Shown one piece after another: positions 1-64,000 of a stretch of DNA of 64,000 nt (its first letter is position 1; the number at the start of each line of letters is the position of its first letter). This stretch comes from Pocillopora verrucosa (taxonomy: Eukaryota; Cnidaria; Anthozoa; Scleractinia; Pocilloporidae), in assembly GCF_036669915.1 (NCBI RefSeq), contig NC_089325.1, positions 3,092,309-3,156,308 of the forward strand. The letters are read 5' to 3'. The position numbers and the translations under genes are program-made. The notes beneath the pieces were generated by a model. The model saw only the letters and a program-made list of their open reading frames with translations. It was not told the origin of the DNA and ran no database searches.

Positions 1-3000
1 GTATCAACATGCGTTGAGTAGTTTTTCCGTACGCCAGTGTCATTCTCAAGTGGTCCTGGCAAAGTTCTCCAGGTTCACAAAGAGATTCCACATGTACCTG
101 CACAAGAGGACTAGGAATTCTGTTCTGGCTCAAGGACATAATGTGAACCAATGGAACCTGTTTAAAGAGTGAAAAAAAATGCCAAATCAACAGACGAAAA
201 GAAACAATTCCATGGAGTTAAAAGCATATTTTTGTTCAAAATTCTAGTGTTGATTTAAGTGTTTTTTGTCTTTATGGAACACCTAGTTGTTTTCATGTTT
301 AACTAACACACCTGGAAAGGTCTCTGCTCCTCCTGCAGTCGGAATCTTCCCTGTGCTTCCCTCCGCAACTCGAATTTTATTATTATTTCATTTTCCAAGT
401 TCAGAAGATGAAAATGTCTATTTTCTTGTTGGGGGGAGTACTCATTACCAAATGGAACAACTTGTATACTGGAGAATTGGTCTCGTTGTAGCTGCTTTAC
501 AATCGAAGCTACTCTGCCCTATATTAGGGGATAAAACAAATAGAAAATTTTCAAAAAATTACTCTATGTTATCATAGAAATCTGAAAATAAGCTGGCACG
601 ACAGTCAGAAATTTGAAAGTTTCAATTGAATAACAATACTCCATTGAAAGGTGGTGACTTCAGGACTAGGGTCTAGCCCTTGATTGTCACCTGATTTATT
701 TCCGGCTAAGAAAGAAACAATCTTCCTGGTACCCAAATTAAATTGTAATCGCAGGACGTTAAGTGAGTACCTGCAAATTGTCATTTAAACAACCTGGCCA
801 AATACTATGCAACAATTATTCACTGAAGTGGAGATGAATAGCGGTGGATATTTACCGTGCCGCCAAGCGTCGCGGTAATTCTCCATTACTTTCAAAATAT
901 ATTTTGTATGTACCACACAGAAACTAAAAAAAAGGTAGTTTTTTCATGTCAATGTACCAAAAAGTATTTAAAAAGATTACATTTTGCGACAATTGTTACA
1001 TTTTGCGGCGTAACACTGGCGTTTTATCGGAAAGAAAAAACGTAGGCATCCATTTCTTGTGCTTTTGAGCCAGTTGATTTTTCATTCCACTGGGGTGAAA
1101 AGAGGAATGGTTCCAAACTCAAGTATTTGTAACGGTTTACTCTACCTGCATCGACTGCTCCACACAGTATACTGAAAAGGTCATTACATCTAATAGTTGA
1201 TGATCGTTTCTTATCACATATAGTGTCACTTGTCGTGGTTGGCATGGATAAGGCACCGACGAGTCTGAAAAACCTACAAGTGAAATGATAAAGTGAAGTA
1301 AAATCATAATAATTTCGACCAGGTGCAATAATCAAGAGAGACGAGGAGATGGTCAACGCTATAACAGCAACATCGAAATCCGTTACAACCACTGTAACAG
1401 TAACAACTTTTAAACTTGCAACAGCAGCAGTAGCTGAAGGATTACAGCCAATTCTGTTCCCTCAGGCACCAATTTACCATGAGCGTCATGGACAAATAAT
1501 GCATTGTTTAACGACTAATAATTTGTGAACGTTGTAGACTTTCAAGGCACAACCTCTCTCACGCTTTTTCAGTATATGTTTGTAACTTAAAATGCCTGCT
1601 GTGTTTGAGTGTGCACTTTGAAATTACTTCGAAAAGTTGATCCTGGTTACTTAATATTAAGAAAGACGTTTTAGCACTTTTGTCAGTTTCGGATTGTTCT
1701 GTTAAACTGCAACTGCGAAAAAGGAAGCAGTGTTGCCAACTGTGAATACCCCAAAGAACTCTTATACGGACCTAACCCTTACTGAAGTTAAGTTGATGTT
1801 CAAACTTCTGTTTTCGATGACAGTCACAATTCTCAAAGTAACCACCATTTCTTACTTAACCAGTTTTCATCAAGTTCAATTTTTCACTCTATCATATACT
1901 ATCATGCAAAGAATCGATGAATTGTTTTACTGCAGGAGATATTTAAGATAATTTTTGAACAACAAATTAGTGCTTTTATATATAAGTTTAAAACATTTTA
2001 ATTCATTGTGAAAGTCAATCAAAAGTTTCTCTTGGATATACTTCAGTGAAGCAGATTTCAATAGAGCAAACGTCAAAAGATTAATATTTCGTGGAAACAA
2101 GATACTTACCTTCCACTGGAAGGTTTCCGCTTTGGATCACAGGGCTTTGAGCGCGTATGTCTACATTCGCGCTGTTTGTTGTTGGTTCTGCTTGAACCTC
2201 ACGAGATGTCTCGTGGGTTTGTGGTACCGATTCCATCCCTCTTGCAAGAGTCAGATGAAGTGCCTCAAGGTTAGTAGCCGAGAATGTGGTGGATTCTTCA
2301 TTCGAAACCCTGTCAGAAGTTTCCCCACTCTGATGAGTTTTTGCACTATATTTTCCACAAAAAGGGCATCTATCAGGTCTTCCGTAAGCAAAAGCATTGT
2401 TGCCGCGATAACAAACACAGTGTAATCTTGATGCCCCGTCGTCAAAAGCCTCGTTTGGTGATCGCCTCGTAGAAGAGGAAGGTTGAGCGGAACCATCTCT
2501 AAGATTACCACGATCACTTTCGTTTTCATAACTCGCTACGAGTTCTTCCTCGGAGACTTCATATGCGTCACTGGATACTTCATTTGCTCCATTGGAGGTT
2601 CCATTGTTACTCTAAAGATAAATGAACTTATTTAGTAATTTTATCTTCCTTCCTGACTATAAACTGGATAGATGCCTGAAGAATGTTACTTCCTTCTATT
2701 GCACTTTCACTTTCGACACTTACAAGGTGCTCTATGAAATATAAGGCCCTAAAGGCACCAGTTAAACATCCAACATCACTGTAAGAAAGAATGACTTAGA
2801 TCCTACGACAATTTGCTAACTAGGCAGCCTTAGTCGAAAGAACTATGAGACATCTCTTCGTCGAAACACTTCGAATGTCGATGGCTCGATGATAGTAAAA
2901 GGTGGTATGTTTCGTAACCTTGAGTGGCTTTCGAGAGACTGTGTGCGCAATTTATGCACTTTTGATTATAAATTCTTCACTGGTTTGAAAGACAACGTAA

Positions 3001-3078
3001 CTTGGGACAATATGGTGCAAAATAGATGATTAAAACACCTACAGTTAGCGAAGTATTCTGTGTTTCTTCCGGATTCAT
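1..3078 (-). CDS. Unit A zinc-ribbon/UPA adaptor-like protein, 3' end off window
   Basis: Exons read on the minus strand: 3043-3078 (ATG, 12 codons), 2110-2611, 1146-1264 or 1273, 312-491 and 1-157 (cut by the window edge). Phases agree throughout (0, 1, 0, 0). Exon 2 encodes an acidic, Ser-rich stretch and a zinc ribbon with ligands C77xC79 and C94PFC97, then a low-complexity linker. The next three exons form a UPA-like beta domain; they align with the same exons of units B, C, E and F and have the same intron positions as the UPA exons of the receptors. No ZU5 precedes it. Whether a CARD follows cannot be seen. The gene starts 300 bp from receptor A in divergent orientation, sharing a kappaB/IRF promoter. 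Likely a cytoplasmic partner of the receptor (inference). Exon 1 was chosen because its length, acidic content and donor phase match the first exons of B and E. Confidence 0.72.
2703..2714 (-). promoter_or_regulatory. IRF/ISRE-type element in intron 1 of minus gene A
   Basis: GAAAGTGAAAGT on the minus strand. The same 12-mer sits in intron 1 of minus gene B (25185-25196), so the element is conserved in position between copies. Confidence 0.5.
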
Positions 3079-3238
3079 TCTCCTTTTCCTTTGCGCCTTC
3101 GATCTCAGTTTCATTTGCTCTTCTGTATTAGACTATCACGTCATAATTTCATTCCTTAGCACACGAGTTTTGATTGGCTGGCTTTTTTTAAGCTTGAAAG
3201 ACATTGGTGGAGCGCAATAGAGATCAGAAACAAAGAAC

Positions 3239-3249
3239 GGGAAAACCCC
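3239..3249 (+). promoter_or_regulatory. kappaB-type site GGGAAAACCCC
   Basis: An 11-bp near-palindrome fitting the Rel/NF-kappaB consensus (GGG, A/T-rich centre, CCC), placed mid-promoter. The same 11-mer occurs on the opposite strand at 52543-52553 in unit E. Confidence 0.65.
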
Positions 3250-3254
3250 CTTTT

Positions 3255-3377: not shown

Positions 3378-6300
3378 ATGTGGATTCACCTTTTGGAACT
3401 TTACGTTGTCATTTCTCACCTGGTAAGGTTAATAAGTATTTTGTCTCTTGACTAGAAAGTGTCAGAACAGGCAAGGGAGATACGTTGATCTCACCACAAG
3501 TTGGGACGTTTCAGTCGGGTTCAGATTGTTCTGGAAATTATGCTGTTTCACGAATATCTCAACTAGAGGTCCGACGAAACCTAAGTACATAAAATTAAAG
3601 TAGTTAAAATCAATTTTGATATGATTCATTGCATCAATATAGGTATCTGGGCAACTGTCCACCTACCTCTCCCCTAACCTAACAATAGTCAATTGATAAC
3701 AAGGTAGGGTTAATTTTGGGTTAGGGGAGGGGTAGGTGGGCAGTTGCCCAGATACTGGTATTGATCCGATCCACTTAAATACAAGGTATATATTGTAAAG
3801 GGGGTTAGTTTCTAAAGAAACTGGTGTTGCGTCGGTAGGAGAGTACAACAGATAGCTCTCTGGCAGTTTTAAGCCTGGCTCAGGAGGGTAAATTGCGTTA
3901 AAAAATTAATTGGCCATATCTCCGCAAAAACACAGCCGATTGCGCCGAAACAATACTTTCCGTACGAAAGTTTACCTTGAGGCCATAATTCTGACCATGA
4001 AGGTCACGTGTTGGGTCACGTGATCTTCATCAATCAAGCAGTTTTAACGGAATTAGTAAGATATACACAGAATCGTTACTGACCAATGAACGAAACAAAT
4101 ACTCAGTAAAAATTGCTAGCCATCTACATGTGGACTGAATCCCCTTCGTTCCTTCAGAAAGAAACTTAATGGCATTTAGGTTAATAGCTGTACTTGACAC
4201 ATCATTCCAAACGTGAAGAAAAAGTTTATCAATACCTTCTTCTATTTTTCAAAGGGCAATTGCGTGAAACGGAAACATAGGCACCGGCGGCCGCGTTATA
4301 AATACTTCTCTTTGAGCTACGAAAGATGCTGCCATGTTGTTTCTTTTCGATAATAATACATATAGCAGACTTGACTATTACCTTATACCGCTGTCTACGA
4401 AAGCGCAAATCAAATATGGCGGTCAGGGTCATTCAGAGGGACAATCACTGCGAAGTAAAGTGATACTGCCGTAATAACCGACAAGTTATTATTTAATGTT
4501 CTAGTACAGTCTGTTTGCGACTTCTGCAATTGTAGGGATACTGGAATACTTGAATTATGGTTAATGATTTGAGTTTGTTTGTTGTTGTTTTTTTTTTGCA
4601 ATTTCCACGCGTGCAACGCATTGCATGGCTTGTGGCTTCCAAAGGAATCAAATATACGACAGTGGGCTTTAATGTAAAAAATCTTAAATGTTTCTCTTGC
4701 CTTGAATGCGAATTCAATGTACCAACGAATAACAATGTTAAGCCGCAGAAGGACGGGGAAGGGAGAAATGACTGCTTGTGATAGCGCCCTAATAGTTTTT
4801 TAAAATTACTTTCTGCACTTTGGACTTACCAAATGTCATTTTTCAAGTACTGAGCTGAGTTCTTATTAGTGCTAGCAGTGAGAAATAGGGTGAAAAACAA
4901 GGAATTTCAAAATCAAACTCTTCCCTTCAACCCAACTTGATGAAAGATAACTTGCATGCCCACATTGCACTAATTTCCGGGCCTAGTTGCTAACCTCTGA
5001 CAAATTTCGTGAGGTACGCAAAAAAGCAAAAGGAAAGAAAAATAGGAATGAGTTAAAAAGACGAAGAAGCATGATGTCGTTTGACAGTGGAATTAACATG
5101 CAGGTTTGCTCATATTTAGCCATGCATGAGATGCAATTTCCCTTGCCAAAAAATAAGAAAAAAATAACAAAATATGATATTGATTCAGAAAAGGCATGCA
5201 AAAGCTGGCAACTGGAAGAGGGGTATCGGCTGTACATGGAACAAAGTGAGAGTAGACACTGATGTATTTGATAAACTAAAGAGCAAGCCCTAAGTTGTTC
5301 TACACACCAGCAAATTAAATATGGTGCCTGAAGATTACACTATGTCACTTTGTACACTTACAGACTCTTAGGGAGTACATGTGCACCCCTCTCATACGGT
5401 TAAAAGATCATTAAAAAAAAACGTCTAACTCAGGCTAATGACCAAGTTGAATGTCATTCTTAGTCAGTTATATAACTTGTAGTTAGTGATCAGATGGCAA
5501 GCTTAAACAAGAAAAAAATAAGTCTTTTCATTGCAGAAAATTCAGAAAGTTGAAAGTTAAATCACCTCAAAACATTCACCAGCTCCTATTACCATCTCTT
5601 GATAATTAGATGACACCTATGTAGCCAGTCCAGTCACATGTAAGCATTTCCTTGATGGTCTGTCAGTTAATATTTAATACAGGATTTATATCTTCCTACT
5701 TATTCTGATTCTTTGCAACACTTCACCAGATTCCAGTGTTGTTGGATGTCAACAGAATTTGCTGTAAACAAAATTATATTAAACAATATTGTTAAGTATG
5801 ATTGAAAATGTTGTTTGTTTGTCATGGGCATATCACTAGCCTTTGAAATGAAAACGTAAGTCAATGTCATCAAAGGTTTAAGCCGAGCACTCATTTTGAT
5901 CGATTCCGCAGCCAAAATCTATTTTTCGCCTTACATGTAAGAACACATCTGTTAACGTATAGCTCTTATTTTCCCTCATTAATTCGAAACTTATACATAT
6001 TGTAGCTTAGTTAATAACCTATCTCCGTTGAAGCTGGCAGGACTCACAGCACTCTCATTTTAATTTTGCTTAGAAAAGTATTGTACTGCGGATCACTAAT
6101 AAATTTATAACTTGGGATTGAACGTACCAAGGTATTTAAATTTGAAAAACAAACAAATCTGTTGTAAGCTGTGGGAAAGGTTCCTCACCGGGGTTTATCA
6201 ATTTATCAATCAAAATGCGCTTCCCTCGAATTAAACACTCTTAATTTGGATGTACGTACGCGTCAGTGTATTATCAGCTACAGCAAATTGGAGCTAATTT

Positions 6301-9300
6301 CTCGAAAATAACACAAAACCAACACTCACTTCAGCTGTAGACCTGACATCTGAGAGAAAAGATCGTCTTCTGAAATATTTAGGCTAGAAATTGATCTTAA
6401 CTTCATCGGAAACGTAACCGTTCTGATGGAAAAACGGCCGCCACGCCACTAACCTTGAAACTCTGCTGAGGGTCTCGAAACAAAATAGGACTCAGGTCTT
6501 AAAAAACTGCTTGTGAGGGTAATTCAGTCGTATCAACTGAGTCATCAGCTTCTAAACTCTTTGCGTGGCATATATTGTAACCTGTTTTAAATTCTAGGAA
6601 ATTCATTTTTGTCAACAGACAAAAAGAGAAGATTTGTGCAAGCTTTAATGTATGTTCATATTCTCATTGTCAGGTCAGCAAATTGCATTCTCTTCAGGTG
6701 TGCCGATACAATCAACAAGCAGTAGAGACCCCAGATGGTAGTTTCGCATGTGTGAATTGCTTGAAATGCCCCCCGGGATCGGGTGTAACGATCCCATGCG
6801 GTAACAAGATATCCCACGGTGCCTCTGCCAAATGCCAGACTTGTGCCTCAGGTTATTATTCTGAATTCTACTCATCTGAGAGCTGTAAGCCTTGTTCAAC
6901 TTGTGGCCCTAATGAAATCATGGTAACAAGATGTAGTAAAACCTCAAACACGCGATGTAAATGCAAGCCATGCCCAGAAGGGTATTACCAAGACCAAACC
7001 TTGTCCAAATGCCTTCCTTGTTCAGGATGTTGCTCAGGAGAATTGGATATGGTGGTTCCATCGTGTCTCAAGCAAGGAATGCCTCGCACCCAAGCATGTA
7101 GCTATCACAGGAAAAAACCCTGTTTAGCGAAGTGCTGGTATGACGAGATTACAGTTGTGAGGAATGATGGCGAACAGATCTGTTTACCCTGTCCTGCTTG
7201 TTCAGACGAATTTGGTCTGACCAAACCATGTGGAAGTTTCGTGACTGATGGTGCAATACCCAAGTGTCAACGTCCAATGGTAGGGAAAACATTTGTTAAT
7301 CGACATGGTACTTTACAGTCATGTAAAATCTGTGCTATTGGCCAAAACATTGTCGCCAATTGCTCAACCAAATCGAATACCATATGTGGTGGGTGCGAAC
7401 CAGGATTTTATTTGAATGACCAGTCAAATGCTTGTGAAGAATGCTTCTGGTGTTGTAACCATAAGGATAGAAAGAGTTTTATGGACTGTATGAAAGAGGT
7501 AATGATGTTGAAAGAGCCTTTTAGTGGGCTTGGGCTTCATCTGCTTTTTTCGTCCATTGCTCTGAACAGTCAATCTGGTCAGTTGCAAACTGCAAAACAA
7601 GAAAGCTCTCTGGTGGAATGTGTCAAACTTGATGCTTTCACAGCCACTTTAATAGGTCTGTGTGTTGCCCTGATTGTGTATCACATCTCTAAAAGACAAG
7701 GGCAAACTTTGAAAGGTAAAGGTCAATGCCCATTCTTAAATAATCTGGAAAAAGGACACAGTTTATCATTGGAAAAGAAAGACCCTTCTGAAAGTACAGA
7801 AACCACTCAATCCACACCTTCAGGCAAGTTAAATAACTAATTATTTTCGCTTTATATATATTGTTATATACCTCAAGTACTTACAATCAGTACTCGTGCC
7901 TCAAAATTATTGTTACAAGCGTTTTTGATAGTGGCTAGCCCACCTTTTGTCGCTAAATTTTTGTTTTGTATCTTATTAACTTATTTGCTTTTGTTTTAGG
8001 CAGAGCACCTCATAAGTATATGAAGTCTGGTGATCAAATGTGCATATAAAAAAGCTACCTTCAAGTTGCACATGTGCAGATTTTTATAATCAATTATTAT
8101 TTATCATTATTTTTGGATCTATTTCTTAGGTATTAAGAAAGTGGAGTGGGAGCATCCAAACCGATATGGCCCAGGTCATGTGGTGTTTGAAAAGACAGGG
8201 GTTGAGGCTGTTATCCTTGACAGTAATAAGTCTACCCTTCAACAAGTGCCAAGCGATTTGGTGTTACATGCCACATCAGACAAGCTGAATTTACCAGGAT
8301 TACTTAAGGATGGCGAATTTCCACTAAGTCCAGCATTTTATCTTGTCACAAGGAGCAAGTTAACAGGACCCCTTGAGCTTCAGATACCTCATGGTGCAAA
8401 CATGGTGCTATCTTGTAATAAGTGGAAAATCATTTTGAAGGAGTTGAAAAACGATGAATGGGTTGTTGTAAGCTATGTGAAGGGTAGTGGAATAAAAGAA
8501 TTCTTCCCCAAAAGTAACCATGTTAGTTTTGAGACAGACCATTTTACAACATTTGCAGTGGTTGGACACTGTGAAGAACAGTCCTTACCAGTACTCAAAA
8601 GAATGAAGGTCATGGCATTTTGTAATGACACCAGAGTTGGAGAAGACCTTGTCGTGAGGCTGTATTGCTTTGATGATTGTGAGTGGTCATTTGAGGTAAG
8701 CTCTTGGGAATAACTAATATAGTTTAAAGATCCTCACCTAATATTAAGCAATAAATAGATGATGATTCAATTTATTCGATTTCAATCTACAAAAAGATCT
8801 CTTTGGGTCATAACATTTCTTTCTACTAGGAGTAAAAATCCTGATATAATCAGAGGCTAGGTATTTTAATCTATGTGACATGTTACCAAGTTCTCAGAAG
8901 CTTTTTGCACATAACTGAAGTCTAGTTAGAATCTATCATGTAACTGCAGTTATTTATAATTTTGATGTTAAATTTGTGCTGGTCTAGTTCATCAAACATC
9001 CTACCTCCAGTCATGGTTAGTTATTTTGTGTGATCTATTTCTGTGTTAATAAATTTGATAAAACTTGTTTGACTTGACTCCACAGAATCTTTTGAGGGAG
9101 GAGAAAGAGAAAGGAGGAAAGTTTATGTCATCAGTGGAATCTCTTGATTTTTCTCTTAGTCACAGAGAAGATGTTGAAATTGTTGTAAAGGATGTTGATG
9201 GCTGGAAGCTAAAGAATGCTTGCCCAATGGTATTTTGCAGACTCTGTTTGAGTGCTATGCAATAACAGTGCAAGTTATTTAGAAAAGAGGAAAAATTTAA

Positions 9301-11435
9301 AGGATGATTCAAAGATCTTAATTTTTTGCACTTAGTAATTGAATTTTCTCAGATCCCTGAAAGTGTTGGTATCTCTGGGTGATTTTGAAAATATCTTAAT
9401 TTTTTTCTGCTTTATCTAGAAAATGAGCTATGCATCAGTGAGGAACTCTTTCAGTACAACTCCCAGATGCAATCTGGTATTTAGCCCTGCATCCAGTGAA
9501 AAGAAAAACGGCTTTTTTTCCACCATTGTTTTGACTCAGGCATCCTCTCAAACTGTAGTGTATGCAATCACTGCTATTAAGAAGGTAGGTGACTGTACAT
9601 TTTAGGTGGTACATTTCGTGGCACAAAATGATTATCAATTTCAAGATGTGAATTTGCAGGTGACTCAGTGGTCTCATTTTAGTATATTTAAATTTGGATC
9701 TGGTCATTTTTTTAAAAGTTTTTTCCTTGCCATGGTCATATTTGGTGTTCAGCACCAGAAACTAATAATTTAAACTTAAAGGTATAGATGCATTGATTAA
9801 AATTGTCAAAGTAAATCCACAACACCAAAGAGAGTTCACCAGCAGTGTAACATTAGTATCAGTGGGCTTTCCTGATCTTTTGGATCATGAGATATACCAA
9901 CTTAGAATAAAGCTTTTAATATTTGTTTATTTTATTGTAGGATCCAATCCGTTATGAAAACCAGAGCATGTTTCCAAATGCTGTGAATGGTGACTTCTTT
10001 GTACTTACCGAGGGGTAAAATAGATGAAAGTCAGTTAGGCTTTATGTAATGTTTAAAAAACGAGCAGCAGTGTTTTATTGGGTTTAAAAACACAAGGCAG
10101 AGCCTAATGTTTTTAGAGCCGATAAAATACGTGCTGCAAGTTTTTTTAACAGCTTCAAAACCCATGCCTCTCAAGAGATTTAGATAAACGTGACGTGACG
10201 TATTAAAGGTTAATTACATTTAGAAAGGGAAAGTGCCCCATGTTCAGCTGCTGTTAAAGGTTCAGAGAGTTTTTATTTGAAATGCCACCCAAAACCAAAA
10301 AGTGCTGAGGAAGGGAGTGAGTTCTTGGATAGTTCTATTCCAAAATCTACACAGTATGCCACAAAGTGGCTTAAGAAAATATTTGGCAAGTGGCAAAGTT
10401 CAAGAAGAAATAAGGACGCCAACTTTGAGGAAAGAAGATTCAAAGTCGAAGTGGACAATGTTCACAGCTTTATATAAAGATCACTGGTGACCTTTATATA
10501 AAGATAGTTTCAATTCAGAATAAGCAATAATTGGAATTGCTTGCACATTCAGCCGCGCACTCCCCTGGGACTGAAATGAAAGCCACCACCAGACTTTTCA
10601 GAATGGTCAAAGATTACCAGGTATAAAGGGTCATACACAAGATGTTATAGTAATGTTTTGATAGGCTGTTGGCCTCATGAGTTTTAATAAAAGTATCAAT
10701 AATTAGCATATACGGAAACTAAAACAGTAGATAGTGTTGAAGGGGCATGCTGATTGGTGACTCAAAGTGCACAAATCCATCGTTATTCACCTCCGAGCAA
10801 TATGCTCAGGATTTGTCCCTGAAAATATCGTAATTGTTGCAGGAATAAATAAGTTAAAACAATTTATTGTTATATGTTCACAGTGTTTTAGTATACACTA
10901 AAACAACTATTCATCTCAGTCCGTGGCTTGCAGTGGATACATGTATCCGCATTATTGTTTTGTGGCTCAGTAAATATCTACCACTAACCACCTCCACTTT
11001 GGTAAATAGTTGTTGAACATTCTTTTTGAATCGAAAACTACTTAGAGTGCAGAGAGTTATGTGCCTGAGGAGAATTAATGTTTCCCTCCAAGTAATCCAC
11101 TTAAGAGTAAAAATTACTTTCAGAGAATTTGTTCCATAGAGAAAAGATAACAATATTAGTTTAACTGATGCAGAAAGTCTTTATATGTTGGCCATGTTGC
11201 TACTTTCTTCCTTCTTCCAGAAGGAAATCAAGTCACAAGTATCGCAGATATCACTGTTGCAAACAGTAGAAAGGGAAAAGAGCAAGACTTCACTGACTGT
11301 ATTGTTCAGTTAAAAAGCTTCATATTAAACCTGATGGTCTTCAGAAATTATGGGTTTCAAAACTTGAACTTTAGCCATCATGAACTAGATGTATTACATG
11401 CATGTATGAGTGTATGTCATATTGTCTCTATTTGA
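3378..11435 (+). CDS. Unit A TNFR-type receptor with ZU5-UPA tail, no death domain
   Basis: Exons: 3378-3422 (start of signal peptide), 6674-7823, 8130-8695, 9086-9229, 9420-9584, 9941-9989, 11224-11435 (11221 is an equally in-frame acceptor); 776 codons, all phases agree. The protein has a signal peptide, about six Cys-rich TNFR repeats that look like a duplicated three-repeat block with diagnostic CSGCC and FWCC pairs, a membrane helix near residues 331-353, a Ser/Thr-rich juxtamembrane tail, a ZU5 domain (LSPAF and IPHGANMVL core) and a UPA domain (LYCFDDCEWSFE, then GGKFMSSVESLDF, then DVDGWKL). A short exon and a novel tail follow where unit C has its DD. No death domain was found before the next gene. 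The donor at 7823 is GC (CAG/gcaagt), an AG-flanked GC-AG intron; the sister gene B has GT there. Probable role: cell-surface TNF-ligand receptor signalling through ZU5-UPA contacts. Confidence 0.85.
3633..3765. repeat. Palindromic MITE in intron 1 of receptor A
   Basis: Two arms of about 50 bp (3633-3690 and 3710-3765) are almost perfect inverted copies, starting GTATCTGGGCAACTG and ending CAGTTGCCCAGATAC, around a short loop. Short, non-coding and fold-back: a MITE-like element. Confidence 0.75.
3770..6660. other. Long intron 1 of receptor A, no gene seen
   Basis: The stretch is A/T-rich with poly-A/T runs. The few open frames are short, low in complexity and have no recognisable domain or supporting splice pattern. 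I see no RNA gene. Confidence 0.5.
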
Positions 11436-25497: not shown

Positions 25498-25508
25498 GGG
25501 GAAACCCC
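25498..25508 (+). promoter_or_regulatory. kappaB-type site GGGGAAACCCC
   Basis: Eleven-base match to the Rel/NF-kappaB consensus; same relative place as in units A, C, E and F. Confidence 0.65.
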
Positions 25509-49901: not shown

Positions 49902-52370
49902 CTAATCAGCTGCTGTCACTGGGCTCTGTTGAGAAAAATGTTCAAGATTAAAGTGAGCTCAGATAATAGAATTGCGACTTAGGAGATGTCATAATTGGAG
50001 CTGGTATTTCAATCGATAATCATGACACAATTTACCTTCACGACCATGCTATAAGTCTTAAATTACAATACAATTCATAAAGAGAAAGGAGGTTTGCATC
50101 ACAAAATAAATAAGTTTACAAAGGTTATGAAAAACAATATTTTAATAGATGACAAGGTGGCCTCATGACTTGAAAAAAAAAATAGAAAAAATGCATTGTA
50201 CATGTTGGCGATAGGCGTTCATTGGGAAAATTTATTTTGCCAAACCCACCAATTCTAACAGTCAGTATTCCTATTACCAAATGCTTGCTCAGAAAAGTAC
50301 TATTCTTTAAAACTCTTTTTGCTATCATTTTGTTGTTACCGTAAATTTATATTAAAAATTGTTAGTGTTACTCTGAAAGTAAACGAGACTTACCCAAAAT
50401 GCGATGGGAAAGTACAGAGAACACTGTGTCTCTGCATCGATGGCTAAGGTGATTTTTCCTTGTTCTTGACAAGGATTTTCGGATTCACCAACATACTGGA
50501 GTCGGAAATGGGACTTGGCTCCTGGTGCTACTCGGTTTTTGCTCTCACATTCAATGTTGGCAACTCTAAAAACCTAAAGAATCAGAAATTCATAACCGTT
50601 GAAAAGCACAGTGCGAAGAGATATAATCCTTTGCTTGATATCAGAAGACTCACTGAAAAGAGTGATTGTTCACTCTTAATCCTAGAAATTTACGAGTGTC
50701 CAACAAGAACTTGACATCTATAGAAAACTGTGTTTGGATTAAAAGCTATTAAAAAATGAATAACGAAACATTGAACTATCATAAAAGGTGTAATCCGGAC
50801 TGAATGATTTAATTTTTGTGTTTCAAATGTACTTACAAATTCTCGGCGTCTTTCATCCTCAGGAGAGACGAAGTTTTGTTGCTGTTGATCCACAATTTCA
50901 AATGAAATTCTAATTTGCTCGTGAACAAATACAGAATGAAAATCTTGGCTTTTGCCATTGTTAACACAAAATGAAATTTGTCTCGTTGAGTAACCTTGCT
51001 CAGTTCCCTCATTTTTGTAACTTTGAACAATTGTCTCATATACCTTAAAGGAAAAAAAAGATGTCTAAGTGTCATTAACTATTCAACGATGAAAACTTTC
51101 AATTGCGAAGGAATTCAATTTCCTACACTCACCTGTTGCTCTTTTTCAGGGATCATATAAAGTAAGAATAACTTTTCTTTCCTTTCTTGGTGGCTTCTTT
51201 CAAAAAGGAAGAAAACCACTGTTAGACCAGGCGATGGATGCTGCACCGAATGGTCACACACATCTGCGGAGGACATGAAATAAAAATAACGTACGTAGAT
51301 GCAAATAAGTCCTTCCAAAGATACGTTCATGAAAATGGTGATCAGATATACAGATTGTAAGAGTTTCTTTACACTGAACAACTCCTCTATCGTGTTTTAC
51401 GTGGCCCAGTGCTGTAAACGAAGTAAAGCAGATTTTAAGTTGAAGACTATTTTGGAAGAGTGAAGTTCGTTAATTTGGACATGTACAATTATGCGGGGTT
51501 TAAAAGGGTTTTAAGTCGACGACTAATTTGACTGGTTGGATAATGATGCGATAAACATACTTCTCAAACAGACAAATCAAAATCGTTACTTCTCGAATGA
51601 AAAGAAAAGAGCAGTACAATTTACGCACACCGTCTTTGAACACAAGAGCTCAAACTTCGAACTTACGTAGTACAGGAATTTTCTTTCGCTGAGGTTCAGA
51701 AGGCACTGTTGGCAAAGATGCTGCTGTCGAGTCGCTGCAGACCTCATCTTCAAGGGATAAACTGGGAAGCGACGGCAAATGTCCCCTGTACGAATCTGGA
51801 ACGGTTAACAAGGTTTCTTCCGTTGTAGTTGGATTTGGGTTGGATTTATTGGGTTTTCCTCGCTGAGTGCGGTTTCGAGTTATCGCTTTACCGCATAGCC
51901 TACAGACCATTTCAGGAGTTCTGCTGGACGTTAAAGTAGGTTGCCCTTCTAAACTATGGGAACACAATTCACTTTGTTCTCTTGATCGTTCCGAAAGGTC
52001 ATTTCTATGTGCTGTCCTGATCCGATTTTCTTCTAAGTCAGAGTCGCTGTCAGATTTATATTGTGCATTACTCCCTATGGCAAGGAGCCCCTCGTTGTTA
52101 TCTTCGCCCTCCAGAGACCGATCCTCATTTTCATCGCTCTACAAAATGAAATGAAAATTGTTGTTTTAATTTTTCGGCTAAACGATCTTCTATTTATATT
52201 TAAATGGAGAGCTATGGAAAACGAAAATATTGATGCAAATAAGATAAGTTTCGAAAGTGAAGTGGAGAACAGCGGATGAAATAAAGCTATAAATTGTAAG
52301 TGGAGAGGGAAAATTGCTATCAGTGCTCAGAATTTACCATATTGTCTCTGTTTGTATTTTCTGCAGCCAT
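49902..52370 (-). CDS. Unit E zinc-ribbon/UPA protein lacking a CARD
   Basis: Exons on the minus strand: 52338-52370, 51667-52138, 51133-51263, 50837-51043, 50394-50573, 49902-49925; 348 codons plus stop, all phases agree. Exon 2 encodes a long acidic/Ser-rich leader and a zinc-binding motif in which the first pair is C70xH72 and the second C90RLC93, a Cys-to-His swap relative to A and B. Residues about 169-341 are the UPA-like domain (FLLYMIPEKEQQ at its first strand). The final exon encodes SPVTAAD and a stop, as in unit B, where unit C splices on to the CARD. No CARD relic was found. Divergent from receptor E with 447 bp between start codons. Confidence 0.78.
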
Positions 52371-52553: not shown

Positions 52554-52594
52554 TTTCTAAAATAGGATTGTTACCTTTTAATTCATGGACATAG

Positions 52595-52817: not shown

Positions 52818-55800
52818 ATGGGAAACATTTTCTCTGTGATCGCTGTTGTCTGCCTACTGGTAAGTCGTTATTTTGAGCGAAATTAGAAAATTCGATGCCT
52901 CGATGGTAAATTCGATGTAAATTCGATGCCTCGATGATTCTTATGATGCTCGAACTAACTTAGAAGTACTTCCTGTTATGGATGTTGAACGCTTTTAGAT
53001 CAGTCGAACAAAATTCAACTGCCAACCCTCTTCTGCTATGTGACGTCCTCACTTTGCACATCTACTCAATCACAGTTTGGTCAACTGCGTTACCTTTGTT
53101 TTTCAGTAGGAGTCACATCACAAAGTTTCATGTTTTACAACGTGCATACATTTTTCTTCCAAACTCGTGCACCTCTATCCACCTACGCCTTCATCACGTT
53201 TCAGTCTTCCACCCACGTTCTTAATCCCATGACAATATCAGTTTCGCTTATCGGCGGAATTTGAATTTCATCCACTTAAATCACGGCTAAATTTATAGTT
53301 TCAAACCTCATATACGAAAGATTTAAATCAACATCTGTTTACCTCTACTTTCACTGCACTGCATCTACGCCATGGTCATCTCAAATTTTCAATTTGCACA
53401 TTTCACTCATGCGTTAATTTTAAAACAGAATAACGCAACAAATACGGGAAGTTTCAATATCTAATTTAAGCAAAGCTGAATACGTACCCTTGCACACTGT
53501 TGAGTGTTTACGTTTCTGCTTTTTTTGGTGAAAATCTGGAGTAAGAGTGGAAGCAGGAGGACGCGTCGCCGAGTAGTAGGCAGGCTACACTTGCAACCTG
53601 GGCCCAGTTGTTCAAAGGCCGATTAGCCCTAACCCAGGGTTAAATTTCAATCCAGCTTTCTTTATTTCTTTATTCAAAAGTCTTTTAGGAAAAATGTTCA
53701 CTATTCTTTTTAGAACATCTAATGATCAAATTGCAAGCAAAAAGATTTGACCTGAATTTTCTCTTAAATTTTTCAGACCTGAAATAAAATTTCACACTAA
53801 CCCTGGGTTACATTAACCCAGTTTTGAACAACCGGGCCTGGTCTAAATGTACTGGGTCGAGTCTTGCAAATAGCCAACGGGTCTGCCTTCAAACAGTTAT
53901 GGTTTATAACCATGTCCTGTTGTATTTTTTAATTATTTCTTTCACTGAATTGATTTGTCTCTTGGCCTTATGTACCATATGTACAGCCTTTGTCGTCCAA
54001 AGGGTCAATAAATCCTTTCTACTTATATAAAGATTATTTTTAGAGCTAAACATCCTAAACAGCATTTATCTCTTGCCTAACATGTACACCATTTTGATGT
54101 CGAGTCCTCTTTTATAGGTTAAGTCAGTGTCTTCAGCCATATTTTGTCAAGAAGACCATCATGGACATGGTCTGTCCCTGGTACTTGACAGCATTACAAC
54201 TCAAGCATTTAGCCTAGGATTCAGCCTTCTGATTCTTTACCTTGTGTACAGTATGTTTTCATTTGACAGCAGTTTGGCCGACAGAAACCAGTCAGCAGAC
54301 CGCTATGATCATAATTCTAAACAAAGAATACTAAATGCACAATCTGGTGAGTGTCAAAAAGACATCAGGATACTTATTAAACGTACTCAATTACTTTGGC
54401 ATAAAGAAGTTTAGCATTTTAATATTATTTTTATTCTGTTAGCCTGCAAGAAGGACGTGCTTTTTGAATATCCAGTGCAACAAAGTACTGACCATATAAT
54501 ATTTCAGAAGACTGGGGTAGAAGTGATGGAAGTGAAGGCTGCTAATGGATTGACACTCACCAATAGATGGATGCCGGGAAATGTGATGTTACAAGCTTGC
54601 ACTGAAGCAATGCTGCCAGACCATTTACAGGAGGATGAGTTGTCTCTAAGCCCAGTATATAAATTTGTATCAGATGTTGTAAAGTTGGACAGACCACTTG
54701 AAGTTTGGATACCTCATGGTGCAAACATTGTTTTAACAGGCGAAAACTGGAATGTAATTTTGAAGGAGTATCGAAACGACAGTTGGGTAACTGTTGGCCA
54801 AACTAGTAAAAGTATCAAAACACAAGAATCAAAGAACTTTGTCTGTAAAAGCAATCATGTGAGATTCAAGACTGACCATTTATCAACTTTCAAAGTAACT
54901 GGAAAGTTTGAAACGTCTCGGTCGACTTTGGCCGTTAAGAGAATGAAGGTTGTAGCATTCTGCAGTGAAACCAAAGTTGGAGAAGAACTTGTTGTCAGGC
55001 TTTACTGCTTTGATGATTGTGAATGGTCTCTCGAGGTATATGGTTTTCATTTTATGATAATTTAGATCAGTGTTATTGTTAACGCTACTTCTTAAAATAA
55101 CGCGATAGTATGGAAGAGAAATTTGCGATACAAACTACTGGTGCCAAGCCATGTGCACTCGTGCAAACAGTACCTTAACCAAAAATGTTTTCTATTTGTT
55201 TTACGGAGTTTTTGATTTATGATCGGGCCTTGTTTCATCATTTTATTTTCAATCAAAAATATTGCTTTCTGTTTTTTGTCTTGGAGAAAGCACAATCTAA
55301 GTAAATTGAAGTTAGTTGTCTTTGTTTATTTTTTACCGTTACAGAGGATGATGCAAATGGAGCAGAAAATTGGAGGAAGACTCATGTCCTCGATCGAATC
55401 TGTCAGCTTTTCTGTTACCAGTAAACAGGGTCTTAACATATCTGTAAAAGATCTTGCGGGCTGGCAGCTGAATAAGGCCTCCCCACTGGTATTGCCAAAA
55501 ACATGTCACTTGCTTTCCTGGACAAACCGTCCATTAAATCTGTGTTATAGTCTTAATTCCTACTTGTGTAGTTCAGTTCCTTTTTTCGACCTGTTTCTAA
55601 TGAGAAGATAGGTGCAGGGAATTACTATCAGGGTCATATTTTGTATCTTTTGCCTCTTCTCGATAGCCTCGCAGCTCATCGAAGAAATTTGCTCTTTGTT
55701 TATTATTATTATTCTTTTAGTTCATTCCTTAAATATGCCATAAGCGTACCAAGAATTTTATGTAAACTTCTGACAAGAATTTAATTATAAATCATTTCTT

Positions 55801-56147
55801 TTATTATAACTCTAGAAATTCAGCTTTGAATCACTGAGGAACTCCTTCAACGTCATTCCTCGGTGTGATCTGGTATTCCAACCTTGCAGGAAGTCACTAA
55901 GCACCAGTGTTTTTGTGGAATTGGTTTTAAATCATGAACCATCTGGTGAAACAAGGATTTATGCATCCACATCACTGAAAAAGGTAAAGAAATATCCAGC
56001 CTATATTTTAACTTTCTTTCCTCTTGCGTTCTGACAAACGTATCCGAGTCCAGCCCCGCAAACGCTATTTCTATATATTTTCTCCTGTAGAGATTTTTAG
56101 AAGATCCTTTAATAAGATCATTTGAACATGATGAAGTGGAAAAGTAG
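52818..56147 (+). CDS. Unit E receptor without cysteine-rich ectodomain: SP-TM-ZU5-UPA
   Basis: Exons: 52818-52859 (MGNIFSVIAVVCLL), 54118-54346, 54443-55035, 55345-55488, 55816-55983, 56091-56147; 409 codons plus stop, all phases agree. The second exon joins the signal peptide directly to about 25 non-Cys-rich residues and a membrane helix (about 45-62). In A, B and C the corresponding exon is about 1.1 kb and carries all the CRDs. Intron 1 contains a MITE but no CRD remnant. The ZU5 (IPHGANIVLTGENW; HLS at the possible cleavage position) and UPA (LYCFDDCEWSLE, GGRLMSSIESVSF) are intact. The last exon gives about 18 residues and a stop, with no DD. It cannot bind a ligand in the usual way; it could be a constitutive or dominant-negative ZU5-UPA membrane protein (inference). 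Confidence 0.8.
53600..53838. mobile_element. MITE with GGGCCCAGTTGTTCAAA termini
   Basis: Left end GGGCCCAGTTGTTCAAAGG; right end complements to GGCCCGGTTGTTCAAAACTGG. Both arms carry AACCCAGGGTTA. Sits in intron 1 of receptor E, where the lost CRD sequence would be expected. Confidence 0.75.
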
Positions 56148-58236: not shown

Positions 58237-61200
58237 TCATTTGTCATCATTGTTGTGACCAGCTGCAAGGTGTCTTTGGTTCAGTAAAATGGCGGCCGCC
58301 TCTTGGTTTTTTCGCTGGCTTCTCATTATGTCTATGATAAGGTCAAGGATGTTGCCCCTCGTCTGGATTGTCCGTAACAAAAAGGCGTTGCGGTACCTTT
58401 TCACTTTCATACTCTCTACCTCTTGCATGTCCTCTTCATCGAAGATTTTGTGTTGGTATAGGTGATCACACACACTGATTGGGTCACCAATATTCTCAAG
58501 AAGAGAAACATGGCAAGAACGCAGCACTCTCCTGTCTTCGTCGGGCATGACAGTGACTGAAAATATAAAAGTTAGGCAATTAGAATAGTCTTAAGAAACA
58601 GTTTATAAATTACCTGTCAATGAAGACAACCCGACCTACTTGCAATCGCGATACTAGTGTCTTTATTTACTGTCAATAACACATACTGACGTGAAGTAAG
58701 GTACGTATCTTTATGCTTACCTAATAAACTAAATATTTTTCCTCACTACCTTACAGCATAACTTATTCACTAATAATTAACAATATTTACTGCTTAAGTA
58801 ACACACATTTGTTTGAGAACTGTAAATGAAATAGTGATTATCAAAGTGTCATAGACTGATACATATTTTCAGTGTTGTAAGGGTTATGTCTAGGGTCCTG
58901 GGTGGCATGGGGATTTCATGGTAGTTTCTCACATGATGGCTATTGTGTTCAAACTCAAAGCAAATCATCTTGTCCTGATATTTCTAGTAACACAAGTTCT
59001 ACTTCAAGATTTTTCAAAAATTGTAAATGGAATGCTTCAGTCAAGCTTGCTTCACAATCTACATGTAATCTCTAATTACCTGCTTGTGGATTGTACAGCC
59101 AGGGTGATATATTTGCTTCGTAGTACTAAATCAAAACAAGATAGAATTTGGTAAAATATGTAATATTTTTTATGAAGACTTTGAGCATTATAACATTTTG
59201 GAAATTACTTTAAGACGAGTTGAGTTTAATTTATTGAACCAAATAATGATGCAAAAATGTAATAACTATTATTTCAGTCTTTGCTAGGTTATCAATAGAA
59301 GACATCTTGAGACACATGAAACTTTACTTGTTAGAACTTTTTGGTTTTAAAAAGATAAAATAAACGAAATTGAATCTAAAACCATGATATGTGGGTGTAT
59401 AAAACTAAAAAGGTATCTTCAAGGAAACGAAAGAAAAAAAAACTCCGTAAGACTAAAAATAGTAAATTTGCAGGACAAGTACCCAATACCTAGCATGACT
59501 TGTTGCATGAAAATTTCGAAAAAGATGCTGATAACAATAATGCTTACATTACAGTACTTATATGATAAGTATGATTATAATATCATTGTAATGATATTGT
59601 TACTAATCGACCTCTCAGTTTGAAACCGTCTAAGTAGGAAACAAACATGACTCTCTGCAACTAACTCACACATGATTGTCTGTGAGCGGTAATATGTCCT
59701 GCCTCGGGAAACACACAAATGGATGTCCATGAAAAATTTTATACTACACGAGGAATTTTTTAAGACAATGCACATTTATAACAATAGCTTACCGCTATGG
59801 GCACAGTAAAATGTAAATTTGTGTCACCAGATTGGATGTTTATGCGGATGTTGTCCTCAAAGAGCTTGTCCTTTTCACCTGTGCATCTTGTTAGGACTGT
59901 TGCTGAAAATCCACACCCAACCCGATCTTTACTCCTTGAAAGGATTTCAGAGACATTTGCAACTATCTGCAGGACAGAATGTTTACGAAGGTGACTAAGT
60001 CAGAGAAGTGCTTGACAAGAATATATAAAACTACAACTTTGTCAGAGTGTCAAAACTCTACATCTCTTTTTCAAAAACTTGCTAATAGGTAAATATTACT
60101 GACAGGAAAAGAAAGACATGAAATACTCAAGGAAGAAATATAAACTTAAAAGACAAATTACAGTACATTAGAGGAGAGAAGTTTCTAAAGTAACAGTGGT
60201 GCTGCGTCAGTGGGAGGGTATACCAGAGTAATTTAGTATTATGAACTGAATCGATAATGTAAAAATTGGCCACCGTAAAGAGTTTAAAAGCTGACGCTCG
60301 AAACGTAAAATTCGAAACTCTTTACGGTGGCGAAATTACGCTATCAACTCCGCTGACAATACTAAATTACGCTACAGTGTAGTAGGGCTAGGTTTAGTCA
60401 ACATGTTTTCACCAGATGGTAAGTGCTCAGGACTTTGATTATATTAATGTGCTAGATTGTATGAATAGAAAATAACTGATCTAATTACTGAAGTCATTTA
60501 TCCAAAGTAACTTACTGTAGGTGGGGAGACAATTGAGAACATTTCACCAGTGACCATTTCAAAGTTAACCTGACAAATTTCATCAATCATAATGCGATGG
60601 AAAAGAGCTGGTAACATTTTTGTTTCTTCCATCATTGGGAACTCTGTGCCATGGCACACAACACCCTCGTATTGCTGGAGTTTGGGAACTTCTGCAATTG
60701 ATCATAAAAATATGTTTGAAAAGCTAATCTCCAGGAGAAACAAGTTCGAAATAATCTACTTAAGAAAGAACCTTGCGACAAATGTTTGCACAGCCTTAAA
60801 TTTCAAAGTTCACATGGCTCAATTTAACTGCAGATAAATTAAAAGAGCACATACATATATGCATACCTCCTGGAAGTCCTTAAGTGGGATTATGTAGAGA
60901 GCATGGATTAAATCATCTCGTGCAATGATTCCTCTTTTACACAGAAAAATCATACAAAGTATTCGGAACACATTGCTTGATCCTGGATCTCCTGGTAATT
61001 GACAAAATTAAATTTTCCTTAACAAATTAATACTATTGCATGTTTATTAATACAAATTAAGTTTATTAGGTGTATGACCTGCCCACATGACTCCTACTAC
61101 CAAACATAATCCGAACTTTGGACTTTAGTGCCAATTGTCTCTCAGAAAAACATAATGGCTATTGGTTCGGACTCCAATGCCCAACTGATTGGCATTATAC

Positions 61201-61984
61201 CTACTTCACTCCTTCTACACACCCACATGAATGCTCTTCTGTTTTCTCGATCCATAAACCTTTGAAGACTATTCGGATTTGAACTAGGAACTACACGGCC
61301 TGAAGGGTATAATGTCCCCTCCAACTGCTTGTGTGATTTCTGATGCGATATTCCGTAGGCTAAGCACAATTCAGATTAAAATGTAGCCATTTAGTTGGAC
61401 TTAGCGAAAAAAAAAATATTCAATTTCATTTACAGACAGAATCGATGGAATCGAGGGAATCGATGGAATAATGGTCTTAATAAAAAAATTAAATCGTTGG
61501 TGATACATAGACAATTATATTAGATTTTCCCCTACTACAAAATCGTTGCGTATCCTACTCTCTGAGCGTCGAGTTGAAGACACCAATACGCCGTTTTGTT
61601 CCGCGTGTATGCTACAACACTCCTGTTGGGGAGTAGGTCTGCTCTGTAAGGATGCATTTCGAGTGTGTTGTTCGGACGAATGTGCAGATTCTAAGATTTC
61701 TTCGATCTGATCATGGGCTTCTGTTTCTCCCAGAGGTCTCCTAGAGTCTTCCACGAACTCTGACTCAAGAAGTAAATCTTCTTCCCTGCCATCAGTGCTT
61801 TTCCGAACTGTGTGTGATGGCAGTTACTGAAGTGTCTGCAATGATGGTTGGCTACCGTAACCGGCGACGGAGCGAGTGCCATCGGAGAGGGACATGAAGT
61901 TAGAGTCGAGGTTCTTTCCCCCATTGTCTGTATCCCGTAATCGTCGGCAGCGTTTCTAGTCAAAGGATTGTACCTGCTATCCAT
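58237..61984 (-). pseudogene. Unit F zinc-ribbon/UPA/CARD gene, 5' part damaged
   Basis: Recognised exons on the minus strand: 61984 ATG exon, UPA exons 60867-60991, 60516-60691 and 59793-59966, and a CARD exon 58237-58556. The CARD (LRSCHVSLLENIGDP, then RGNILDLIIDIM, then NQEAA) is intact and closest to that of unit C. Lesions: the first exon is open from ATG for 97 codons but the acidic linker that should follow lies in another frame. The second UPA exon has two extra bases at its acceptor, so its phase no longer fits the exon before it. The small exon joining UPA to CARD is uncertain (candidate 58614-58635, right phase, weak acceptor). This may be a decaying gene, or the splicing may differ from the sister genes. 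Confidence 0.6.
60180..60385. repeat. Fold-back repeat in an intron of gene F
   Basis: Contains the inverted pair CCACCGTAAAGAGTTT and AAACTCTTTACGGTGG around GACGCTCGAAACG. The flank at 60177-60220 resembles 3800-3850 (TTTCTAAAG.AAC, GCTGCGTC). Confidence 0.6.
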
Positions 61985-62736
61985 TGCTCTGCTTTAGGGA
62001 TACCGAAGGTACAGCAAACCACCGAGATATGCCCCTATGCGGCGATAAGTTATTTTATATTTTCACAACGTGCTCTGTAAGCACTTTCGTTTCCGTCGAA
62101 CAGAGTCTTTTCCAGCCATTCAGCGTTTAGAGTGTTAATAATTTATTATGAACGGGATCATATGATTGGTTGTGGGTAGCTAAGTTTGAAGTTTAATTGG
62201 AAGGGGAATCCCCGCACTCCTACGAAGTGAAAAGATTCGACGAGTCGGGGGTGTTGGCATTGTAGTCGAGTTCACCGTTGCTGACAAGACCGCTCACCTA
62301 ACTTTCCCTCATAACGTTGTCATGAAAAGGCGTAAGTACCTGGAATTCAGTATTCTTGCTTTGCATGTGTCACGCTGTTTCAGCATGTATTTTAAATGCG
62401 ATCTTCTTTTGGATTTCGATCACGTCACACAATTTTAAGTTATTGATTCCCGTCAAAATCATTTGAATGTTGTAGGTTATTCGCAAGGCACAAAGGCAAT
62501 CAAAACTAAAGGACAATTGTAATGTTTAGTGAGTAAGCAAAAGGATAAATCTTCCTAATTTTCTGAGCGTTATGATTACCTTAAGAATGTGCTTCGCCTA
62601 GCACTTTCGATCAATGACGTTTGTTACTTTACCCAATTTAGGCCTGGTTAAACACGGGATTAAGTAAGCCGACCCTTCAGCTCAATTAGTGGCGTTTTCT
62701 TTAAATTTTACCTTTGCAGATCTGAGAGACCAAAGA
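61985..62736. promoter_or_regulatory. Unit F divergent promoter
   Basis: Contains an IRF-type core (AACGAAAG on the minus strand, 62084-62094), CCAAT boxes (ATTGG near 62166 and 62197) and a kappaB site at 62203-62213. The architecture is kept although both flanking genes look damaged. Confidence 0.55.
62203..62213 (+). promoter_or_regulatory. kappaB-type site GGGGAATCCCC
   Basis: Identical 11-mer to units C and E. Confidence 0.68.
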
Positions 62737-64000
62737 ATGTACATTCTGAGCCTCTTTAATGTGTTCATTCCAATTTCTCTCCATTAAAAATGTGAGTAAA
62801 CCGTTATTCTTTAGGAATTTTCAAAAAATTTAAATGAATATATTACGAAGTGACAGTTTGCCGCCCGTCTCGGTCAAATTCCACGAAATTCTCAGCGATA
62901 ACCCCATTGCATTACAAATGACCTTTACAAACGACATTGGATCATTTCCTAGAAAGCAATGCCAGTGATAAAAGACACAGCTACGTGATTATTTACCAGA
63001 CTAAACGGCACAGAGGTAGACCGTTGAAAGCAGGATAAAGAATAGAGCAGCTTTGCTCCTAACGGCTTATCAACAAAGACAGGTCTACAGTATCCTGACA
63101 TCTCCACACTGATTGGCGAGCTTAGAAAGATTTCGATGTTCCTCACACTGAGGTTTAGGCACCAGTCTTCCTTAACAGCTTCTAAATTAAATTATAGAGG
63201 GTCTTATAATACATGATAATAAACATCAATTTGCTTTTTATCAGGTTCATACCGTCTGTAACTATGACGAATTTGAAGTCGAAGATGTGTTCAACACACG
63301 TTCTTGTCAAAAATGTCTATCTTGTCCTCCTGGAATGGTCTAACACCACAATGTGGGCAGTTTTGTTAGTTATGGTGAAAAAGTTATTGTGAGCCATGTG
63401 AACCTGGAAAATCTTACTCTCCTAATAATGATAGCAGTTCATGCCTGTCATGTGGAATCTGCTCTGACCATGAAAGCCGCAAGAGGAACTGTTCCTTGAC
63501 GAATAATTCACAGTGTGAACATGGCTGTGGCAAAGGGTTTTACTTTGAAGAACTCACTGGAGATTGTAAGCCCTGTTCCTTCTGCTTTTCCTATCTTCCC
63601 AATTGTAACATAAAAATAGTGTGAAAAGAAGGTTGCAAGGACATGCCATTTACAGACAATGCGATGCCAATGCGATTGGCTGTCAATTACCAAAATGTAG
63701 AGAAGATCAATCCCTTGTTGTAACCCAAGAAAAAAGACAGTGCATACTGTGTGGATTGTAAAATCTGCCGGCGGGAACATCACCCTTTCCACAATGTGGA
63801 AATGGAATCATAATAAAAAGCATTGATGATATAAAATGTATTAAGTGCTCTCGTGGCAACAACGTTTTCTGAAAAGCCAACTAAGCAAACTTGTAAGAAA
63901 TGCTCCATTTGTGCAGTTGGACAGAGAGAAACTGACACCCTGCAATATGACACATGATAGGATTTGTGGGAAATGTGACAAAGGACTTCTATGGCAGTAA
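62737..64000 (+). pseudogene. Unit F TNFR-type receptor remnant, runs off window
   Basis: From acceptor 63244/63245 the sequence matches the CRD exon of receptor C (CNYDEFEVEDVF, SCQKCLSCPPGM). A one-base loss brings TAA at 63341-63343. Further frame changes are needed to follow the repeats (CGICSDHES-, CKPCSFC- and CKKCSICAVGQ-type segments), at least three in 750 bases. A candidate signal-peptide exon (ATG 62737, MYILSLFNVFIPISL) meets TAA just before its donor. Several lesions make a pseudogene likely, though uncorrected indels near the window edge cannot be excluded. The ZU5-UPA part, if any, lies beyond 64000. Confidence 0.72.

Follow-up and report, generated by a model that had tools for sequence, protein, structure and literature searches.

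The window analysed here, a 64-kb stretch of the Pocillopora verrucosa genome (G000:C14:3092309-3156308; positions above 64000 continue the window numbering), carries an array of divergent gene pairs, each made up of a plus-strand receptor gene and a minus-strand gene here called the adaptor gene (Table 1). Genome searches covered 353,415,432 bases in 52 contigs. The window holds five head-to-head pairs (A, B, C, E, and F) and one receptor gene, D, without an adaptor partner. The distance between the two start codons is 300 bp in pair A, 435 bp in B, 757 bp in C, 448 bp in E and 758 bp in F, in agreement with the five pairs and 300-760 bp given in a preliminary description of this DNA; the array of six units described there was seen as well, but it extends beyond the 64-kb window. 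In pairs B, C, and E the starts come from clean first exons of both genes. Pair A is tentative (weaker adaptor donor, receptor exon 3.2 kb upstream), and the distance in pair F was taken from a second copy of the same DNA (75116/75874), from which unit F was read exon by exon. The spliced chains of A, B, C, and E are free of internal stops, in receptors and adaptors alike. The head-to-head array is real, and it is better founded than the preliminary description could know because of κB sites in the gaps between the paired genes.

Table 1. Features of the window. SP, signal peptide; TM, transmembrane segment; DD, death domain; aa, length of the spliced chain, with + where the 3' end was not reached.
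Feature	Position	Strand	Content
Adaptor A	1..3078	-	exons 3043-3078, 2110-2611 (CxC...CxxC), 1146-1273, 312-518, 157 to beyond left edge; first exon tentative; 349+ aa
κB-type site, A gap (3079-3377)	3239..3249	+	GGGAAAACCCC; minus-strand GGGGTTTTCC at 3240-3249; one mismatch
Receptor A	3378..9989	+	SP, TNFR repeats, TM, ZU5, UPA, 16-aa linker; no DD found; 706+ aa
Frameshifted CARD relic	11955..12145	-	longer piece 78% identical to C CARD; 10 kb from B
Adaptor B	22086..25350	-	five exons; intact CARD not found; 318+ aa
κB site, B gap (25351-25784)	25498..25508	+	GGGGAAACCCC
Receptor B	25785..29919	+	SP-TNFR-TM-ZU5-UPA-linker; no DD found; 698+ aa
CARD exon beside adaptor C	30879..31192	-	Pfam CARD E 1.9e-6
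Adaptor C	32371..34331	-	CxxC...CxxC exon and three-exon domain; 293+ aa
κB site, C gap (34332-35087)	34459..34469	+	GGGGAATCCCC
Receptor C	35088..40132	+	SP-TNFR-TM-ZU5-UPA-linker-DD; 815 aa and stop
Receptor D	44374..47477	+	TNFR, DD-like exon; ZU5-UPA, adaptor and first exon not found
Adaptor E	50394..52370	-	CARD not found; 341+ aa
Two κB sites, E gap (52371-52817)	52520-52530, 52543-52553	+	GGGGAATCCCC, GGGGTTTTCCC
Receptor E	52818..55983	+	SP-TM-ZU5-UPA; TNFR repeats and DD not found; 392+ aa
Probable unmerged contig overlap	54380..64000	.	second copy 67375-77138
CARD exon beside adaptor F	58240..58556	-	Pfam CARD E 3.6e-9
Adaptor F	59793..61984	-	first coding exon and second domain exon without frame breaks in second copy
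κB site, F gap	62203..62213	+	GGGGAATCCCC
Receptor F start	62730..64000 (start approximate)	+	frames broken at contig end

Receptors, adaptors and death-fold modules

Receptors A, B, and C have a common exon plan, which consists of a signal-peptide exon (phase 0), a TNFR exon with a phase-1 end, a ZU5 exon in which the UPA strands also begin (phase 1 to 0), two more UPA exons (phase 0) and a short linker exon (phase 0 to 1), followed in C by a DD exon. The second copy of F has the same exons as receptor C, and its TNFR, ZU5, UPA, and DD exons are all open. Receptor E follows the same plan, with a short TM exon replacing the TNFR exon. At 7824, receptor A has an apparent GC-AG intron (CAG/GCAAGT) where receptor B has GT.

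Domain searches recognised these modules with different strength. Pfam TNFR_c6 was matched above cut-off by A (E 3.1e-17), B, C, D, and the second copy of F, and below it by the window copy of F; neither this search, in which 150 of 247 candidates were scored genome-wide, nor our own profiles detected cysteine-rich repeats in receptor E. For Pfam ZU5, receptors C (3e-9) and E (1.8e-4) scored above cut-off and A below it (0.036), the genome search gave C and the second copy of F, and the ZU5 of B was recognised by its 75-77% identity to A. UPA was found in all five paired receptors at E up to 1 (A 4.9e-7, best 5.5e-9), and no ZU5-UPA was found in D by our own profiles. These profiles were built from some of the same sequences, and their self-matches are for that reason not evidence. 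Among solved structures, UNC5B was the best PDB match of the receptor ZU5 profile (E 2e-11; UPA part E 0.063). A structural model of the ZU5 exon (mean pLDDT 66, last 35 residues unreliable) gave ankyrin ZU5 structures as its top fold matches, followed by a GAIN domain. The TNFR-ZU5-UPA architecture that the preliminary description assigned to all five paired receptors thus holds for A, B, C, and F but not for E, and D, described as a lone receptor of the array, has TNFR repeats and no partner but no ZU5-UPA that could be found.

The adaptors begin with a first exon (phase 0) and a long exon that contains cysteines and ends in phase 1, and continue with three exons (phases 1-0, 0-0, and 0-0) that encode a conserved domain of ~160 residues; in C and F the start codon lies inside the cysteine exon. 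A zinc ribbon had been proposed for these proteins. The complete CxxC...CxxC is present in adaptor C only, but the motif is incomplete in A and B (CxC...CxxC) and not present in E and F, and no Pfam zinc family scored above cut-off in adaptors A and C.

In the same two pairs, C and F, the receptor was found to have a death domain and the adaptor to have a CARD exon next to it. The death domain of receptor C is recognised by Pfam Death (5.8e-5), and that of the second copy of F matches it at 5e-43; best matches of the C domain are weak, with MALT1 (E 0.004) above p75NTR (0.29). The last domain of D matched the F death domain (tblastn 4e-5) and a death domain at 88.9 kb (6e-13), with no Pfam Death hit of its own. 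A model of the C CARD (mean pLDDT 76) had CARDs as best fold matches (TM-score ~0.6-0.7, best Foldseek E 0.33), and its best sequence match was CARD8, weakly (E 0.047). The CARD exons start in phase 1 and the last adaptor exon ends in phase 0; it is likely but unproven that the CARD exon is part of the adaptor transcript. A tandem array of ~8-bp units lies at 31200-31566, just upstream of the C CARD exon, where the adaptor-to-CARD intron would fall.

Neither our own profile nor seven selected receptor-tail open reading frames (ORFs) revealed a death domain in receptors A, B, and E. For adaptors B and E, no intact CARD was found by our own profiles or in 13 selected adaptor-tail ORFs, which included the CARD relic, itself without a hit there. 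Together these 20 tail ORFs gave zero death-fold families and three sub-threshold unrelated hits. For the tail of adaptor A, no CARD was found in the 32 kb to the left of the window (own profile and tblastn only). Judged by these domains, the pairs fall into two classes, armed (C and F) and unarmed (A, B, and E).

Shared gaps and duplication history

A putative κB-type site lies in each of the five gaps between paired genes. The motif GGGGAAWCCCC occurs at four places in the window (25498, 34459, 52520, and 62203; 0.03 expected), all of them in the B, C, E, and F gaps. Allowing one mismatch adds a place in the A gap (3239) and another in the E gap (52543), for nine two-strand matches (0.61 expected). 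The looser consensus GGGRNWYYCC gives 19 overlapping two-strand matches at eight places (2.3 expected), and six of these places are in the five gaps. In an unbiased k-mer search, κB words were the only 9- to 11-mers common to at least three gaps. Distances from the sites to the adaptor ATG are 128-219 bp, and by ungapped identity the site cores are 82-100% identical, as against 18-37% for the 60-bp flanks. The presence of a κB site in each gap, while the flanks have diverged, lends independent support to the earlier suggestion of joint production, and the receptor and adaptor of each pair are probably made together during an immune response.

Genome-wide, GGGGAATCCCC occurs 175 times, vs. 40 for its reversed control. 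GGGGATTCCCC is also the κB site of vertebrate major histocompatibility complex class I genes. For Nematostella NF-κB, the probe used for electrophoretic mobility shift assay, TCGAGAGGTCGGGGAATCCCCCCCCG from the upstream region of Nv-IκB, contains GGGGAATCCCC (PMC2751831). Several other occurrences were recorded. The κB consensus GGGATTTTCC is present at 41332-41341, ~3 kb upstream of the TNFR exon of D. Among 100 of the 175 genomic places of GGGGAATCCCC that were listed, 27 fall in C8:20640552-21096211. Two κB-dense spots on C8 and C5 (9 and 8 kb) have one ORF of at least 110 aa each, the C8 sample, from this same interval, with no clear gene; no family search was made there. At C4:24.98-25.14 Mb, at least seven κB words occur among at least four TNFR_c6 hits, which makes this another candidate for a TNFR cluster linked to NF-κB.

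Trees of the five units, built with FastTree, have the same topology for receptor ZU5-UPA and for adaptors, ((A,B),E,(C,F)), with each split recovered in 60 of 60 bootstraps. This congruence argues that the pairs were duplicated as units, in agreement with the claim that the pairing survived repeated tandem duplication. Identities are 77% (A-B) and 73% (C-F) for receptors and 44% and 30% for the adaptor domains of the same pairs, hence the adaptors change faster; overall, adaptor domains are 14-44% identical, with frames and exon phases kept. When one more adaptor-like gene from further downstream is added (G, on the minus strand at 90.8-92.5 kb, whose first exons were not found), E joins C+F with support of 0.72, so that the place of E among the adaptors is not firm.

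The duplicated DNA at the right end of the window concerns unit F. Between 56.0 and 62.5 kb the two copies, which are separated by 3374 N, show 2 mismatches and 14 gap positions; their differences pile up mostly at the two contig ends. Since the copies look like one sequence, unit F is probably one unit, its frame breaks are probably contig-end errors, and the copy number is probably inflated in the assembly. A real extra copy of F was considered and thought unlikely on the near-identity and the end-piled differences; a very recent duplication is possible. Further downstream, 76943-102651 and 188901-223692 are near-copies in several blocks (94-99% identical) beside a 5000-N run, and may represent a segmental duplication or an unmerged haplotype.

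Related genes and known systems

Genome searches with the receptor A tail, the B, F, and E adaptors and the C CARD gave matches on C14 only. TNFR_c6 gave at least 52 repeat matches genome-wide, at least 19 of them at C14:3.09-3.37 Mb. A genome search with the UPA family gave nothing, even at the array, because exons split the UPA domain. On C8, four ZU5 hits lie 2.9-4.5 kb from same-strand TNFR hits. One of these loci (L031, C8:18087001-18096000) resembles the array receptors in having TNFR repeats, a TM-like segment and ZU5 in that order on one strand, and differs from them in that the 9 kb read gave no match to our own profiles for the adaptor domain, DD and CARD and has no GGGRNWYYCC. It also contains a long Ser/Thr/Pro-rich stretch.

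The locus had been put forward as an undescribed module. A literature search on ZU5 with TNFR, UPA or CARD and on coral TNFRs returned, among the matches listed, no title or abstract that describes a TNFR-ZU5-UPA receptor or such a pairing, a weak negative in that subscription papers were outside its scope. This is consistent with the proposal, but the parts are of known kinds, and the C8 candidate combines TNFR and ZU5 without an adaptor. UNC5 netrin receptors have an ectodomain of Ig and thrombospondin domains. Like these, the present receptors have ZU5-UPA after a TM, and in C and F a DD as well, with UNC5B as the best solved relative; unlike them, they have an ectodomain that is TNFR-type or absent, and an adaptor gene placed head to head. 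The TNFR death receptors share the cysteine-rich repeats, the single TM and, in C, D, and F, the DD. They differ in that ZU5-UPA lies here between TM and DD (C and F), no DD was found in A and B, and no repeats were found in E.

The FIIND proteins NLRP1, CARD8, and PIDD also have ZU5-UPA; the C CARD is weakly CARD8-like, and a hydroxyl residue stands at the cleavage position in A, C, E, and F. In contrast, the proteins described here are surface receptors, with the CARD beside or in a separate gene. Cleavage takes place at SF/S in CARD8 and NLRP1 and at HF/S in PIDD (PMC3210808), and UPA is described as lowering the CARD-filament threshold in NLRP1 and CARD8 (PMC7794386). The residues aligned at this position are HFT (A), YFA (B), SLT (C), HLS (E), and NLT (F), and QLG in UNC5B; none of the five receptors has the strict HF/S or SF/S motif, and four of the five have a hydroxyl nucleophile. 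Invertebrate TRADD-N (DEDD2-clade) proteins fused to FIIND or UPA-ZU5 are similar in their lineage-specific expansions, including cnidarians, and in joining death-type modules to ZU5-UPA, but they are TRADD-N fusions rather than TNFR receptors, and no divergent pairing is described in the available part of that paper (PMC8195603). With cnidarian NF-κB-regulated genes the array shares a site that matches the core of the Nv-IκB probe exactly; unlike in those genes, the site stands here between two divergent genes, in five cassettes.

A model for the array and its alternatives

The reading to which we give about an even chance is that of a tandem array of NF-κB-inducible receptor/adaptor cassettes, two of them signalling (C and F) and three decoy or modulatory (A, B, and E). 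It starts from the gene anatomy, receptor domains, κB-type sites, co-duplication and DD/CARD split as they are read in the DNA. Within each cassette both genes would share a single bidirectional promoter no longer than 757 bp, and through the κB site in it, we infer, NF-κB would switch them on together. Transcription to the right would yield a membrane protein that spans the membrane once and has a tail of UNC5-like ZU5-UPA, and transcription to the left a cytosolic protein with a cysteine-containing N-terminus and the conserved three-exon domain. In the armed cassettes, receptors clustered by ligand would display their death domains, the adaptor would dock on the clustered tail via a UPA-like domain, and death-domain and CARD oligomers might then recruit caspase or BCL10-type effectors. 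The unarmed cassettes, with no death-fold module detected in either partner, may provide decoys or dampers that compete for ligand or tails.

Several results weigh against this model. The preliminary description placed a UPA in the adaptor, and Pfam UPA was recognised in none of the five members of the adaptor domain, the profile of which had no notable match in PDB. Alignment of this domain with receptor UPA by hhalign (five rows) gave a probability of 0.05%, and of 0.6%, non-collinear, after the downstream adaptor and UNC5B were added, a score that shuffling of columns attained only twice in 100 trials with global and four times in 100 with local alignment. In an exon-wise comparison, shuffles equalled or exceeded the real score 13, 0, and 121 times in 150 for exons 1-3, and once in 150 for the sum, which backs the middle exon only; one permuted exon order scored 5.2 vs. 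4.9 for the true order. After the Pfam, PDB and two hhalign tests, and with partial exon-wise support, UPA in the adaptor was not accepted as shown; at best weakly supported, it is kept as a hypothesis because the intron phases are equal and because of the middle exon.

A conserved in-frame link from adaptor to CARD was not found in C and F, where only weak, dissimilar candidates appeared; the same method recovered the linker of receptors C and F (DPFRRSQ... / DPSRKFQ...). Of the CARD listed earlier for the adaptor genes, intact exons were found beside C and F, and none intact for A, B, and E. The DD/CARD split follows the clade C+F vs. A+B+E and for this reason may amount to one or two events, although it shows in both partners. 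Gene G faces, several kb off, a TNFR-DD gene without ZU5 at ~97 kb. GGGRNWYYCC also occurs in the TNFR coding exon of B (27041) and upstream of the unpaired D (41332). The κB motif was picked once a shared word of the GGGGAATCCCC type had been seen in gaps B, C, and E. The ATGs of these three gaps had been fixed in advance, but the starts of pair A and of receptor F were set together with the motif or later, so that the binomial figures are guides: 7e-5 for three of four exact sites and 3e-5 for four of eight looser sites in gaps B, C, and E (2.6% of 62.5 kb), and 2e-7 for six of eight looser sites in all five gaps. Among 10-mers found with one mismatch in all five gaps, the rarest is κB-like, with a window count of 7, and 30 of 30 random interval sets gave at least 8; three of these sets gave exactly 8, and the support for κB from this test is modest.

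One alternative is co-regulation without partnership, in which a common NF-κB promoter would serve both genes as immune genes, the products would never touch and the adaptor would act in another pathway. In its favour, promoter sharing is seen at the sequence level only, the adaptor domain has no proven similarity to receptor UPA, the C8 TNFR-ZU5 locus has no adaptor domain in its 9 kb, and the B, F, and E adaptors have matches on C14 only. We consider it unlikely, though not lightly dismissed, as the common five-unit topology implies that partners were duplicated and kept together, and receptor DD and adjoining CARD occur in the same two pairs. Alternatively, the adaptor could be an inhibitor that caps the receptor tail, NF-κB making receptor and brake together. 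The intact CARD exons beside adaptors C and F speak against this decidedly unlikely reading, while co-production suits a stoichiometric brake, and three of the five adaptors have no intact CARD found nearby.

Plain tandem duplication would make both coupling and κB site irrelevant, a head-to-head pair having simply been copied by unequal crossing-over. The pairs do lie in one array, cassette copying alone yields congruent trees, and DNA similarity between the A and B regions covers the receptor and the next CARD exon. However, the κB cores were kept while the gap flanks decayed, and adaptor domains of such low identity have retained frames and exon phases, which makes this explanation improbable. 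A more speculative proposal, and a very improbable one in our estimate, is a split surface inflammasome, in which the receptors, like NLRP1, CARD8, and PIDD, would cut themselves where ZU5 ends (A at HF/T, C at SL/T, E at HL/S, F at NL/T), and the CARD half would be supplied in trans by the divergent UPA-like partner from one NF-κB promoter. If true, NLRP1/CARD8 would have a counterpart at the membrane that is split over two genes.

The array of putative NF-κB-inducible cassettes offers a compact and directly testable case of a death-receptor-type receptor and a candidate adaptor under one putative NF-κB promoter, amplified as a unit. One report suggests a connection between coral bleaching and the activity of NF-κB (PMC13042239). 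If the model is true, an early-branching animal ties the dosage of receptor and adaptor together and adds decoy cassettes.

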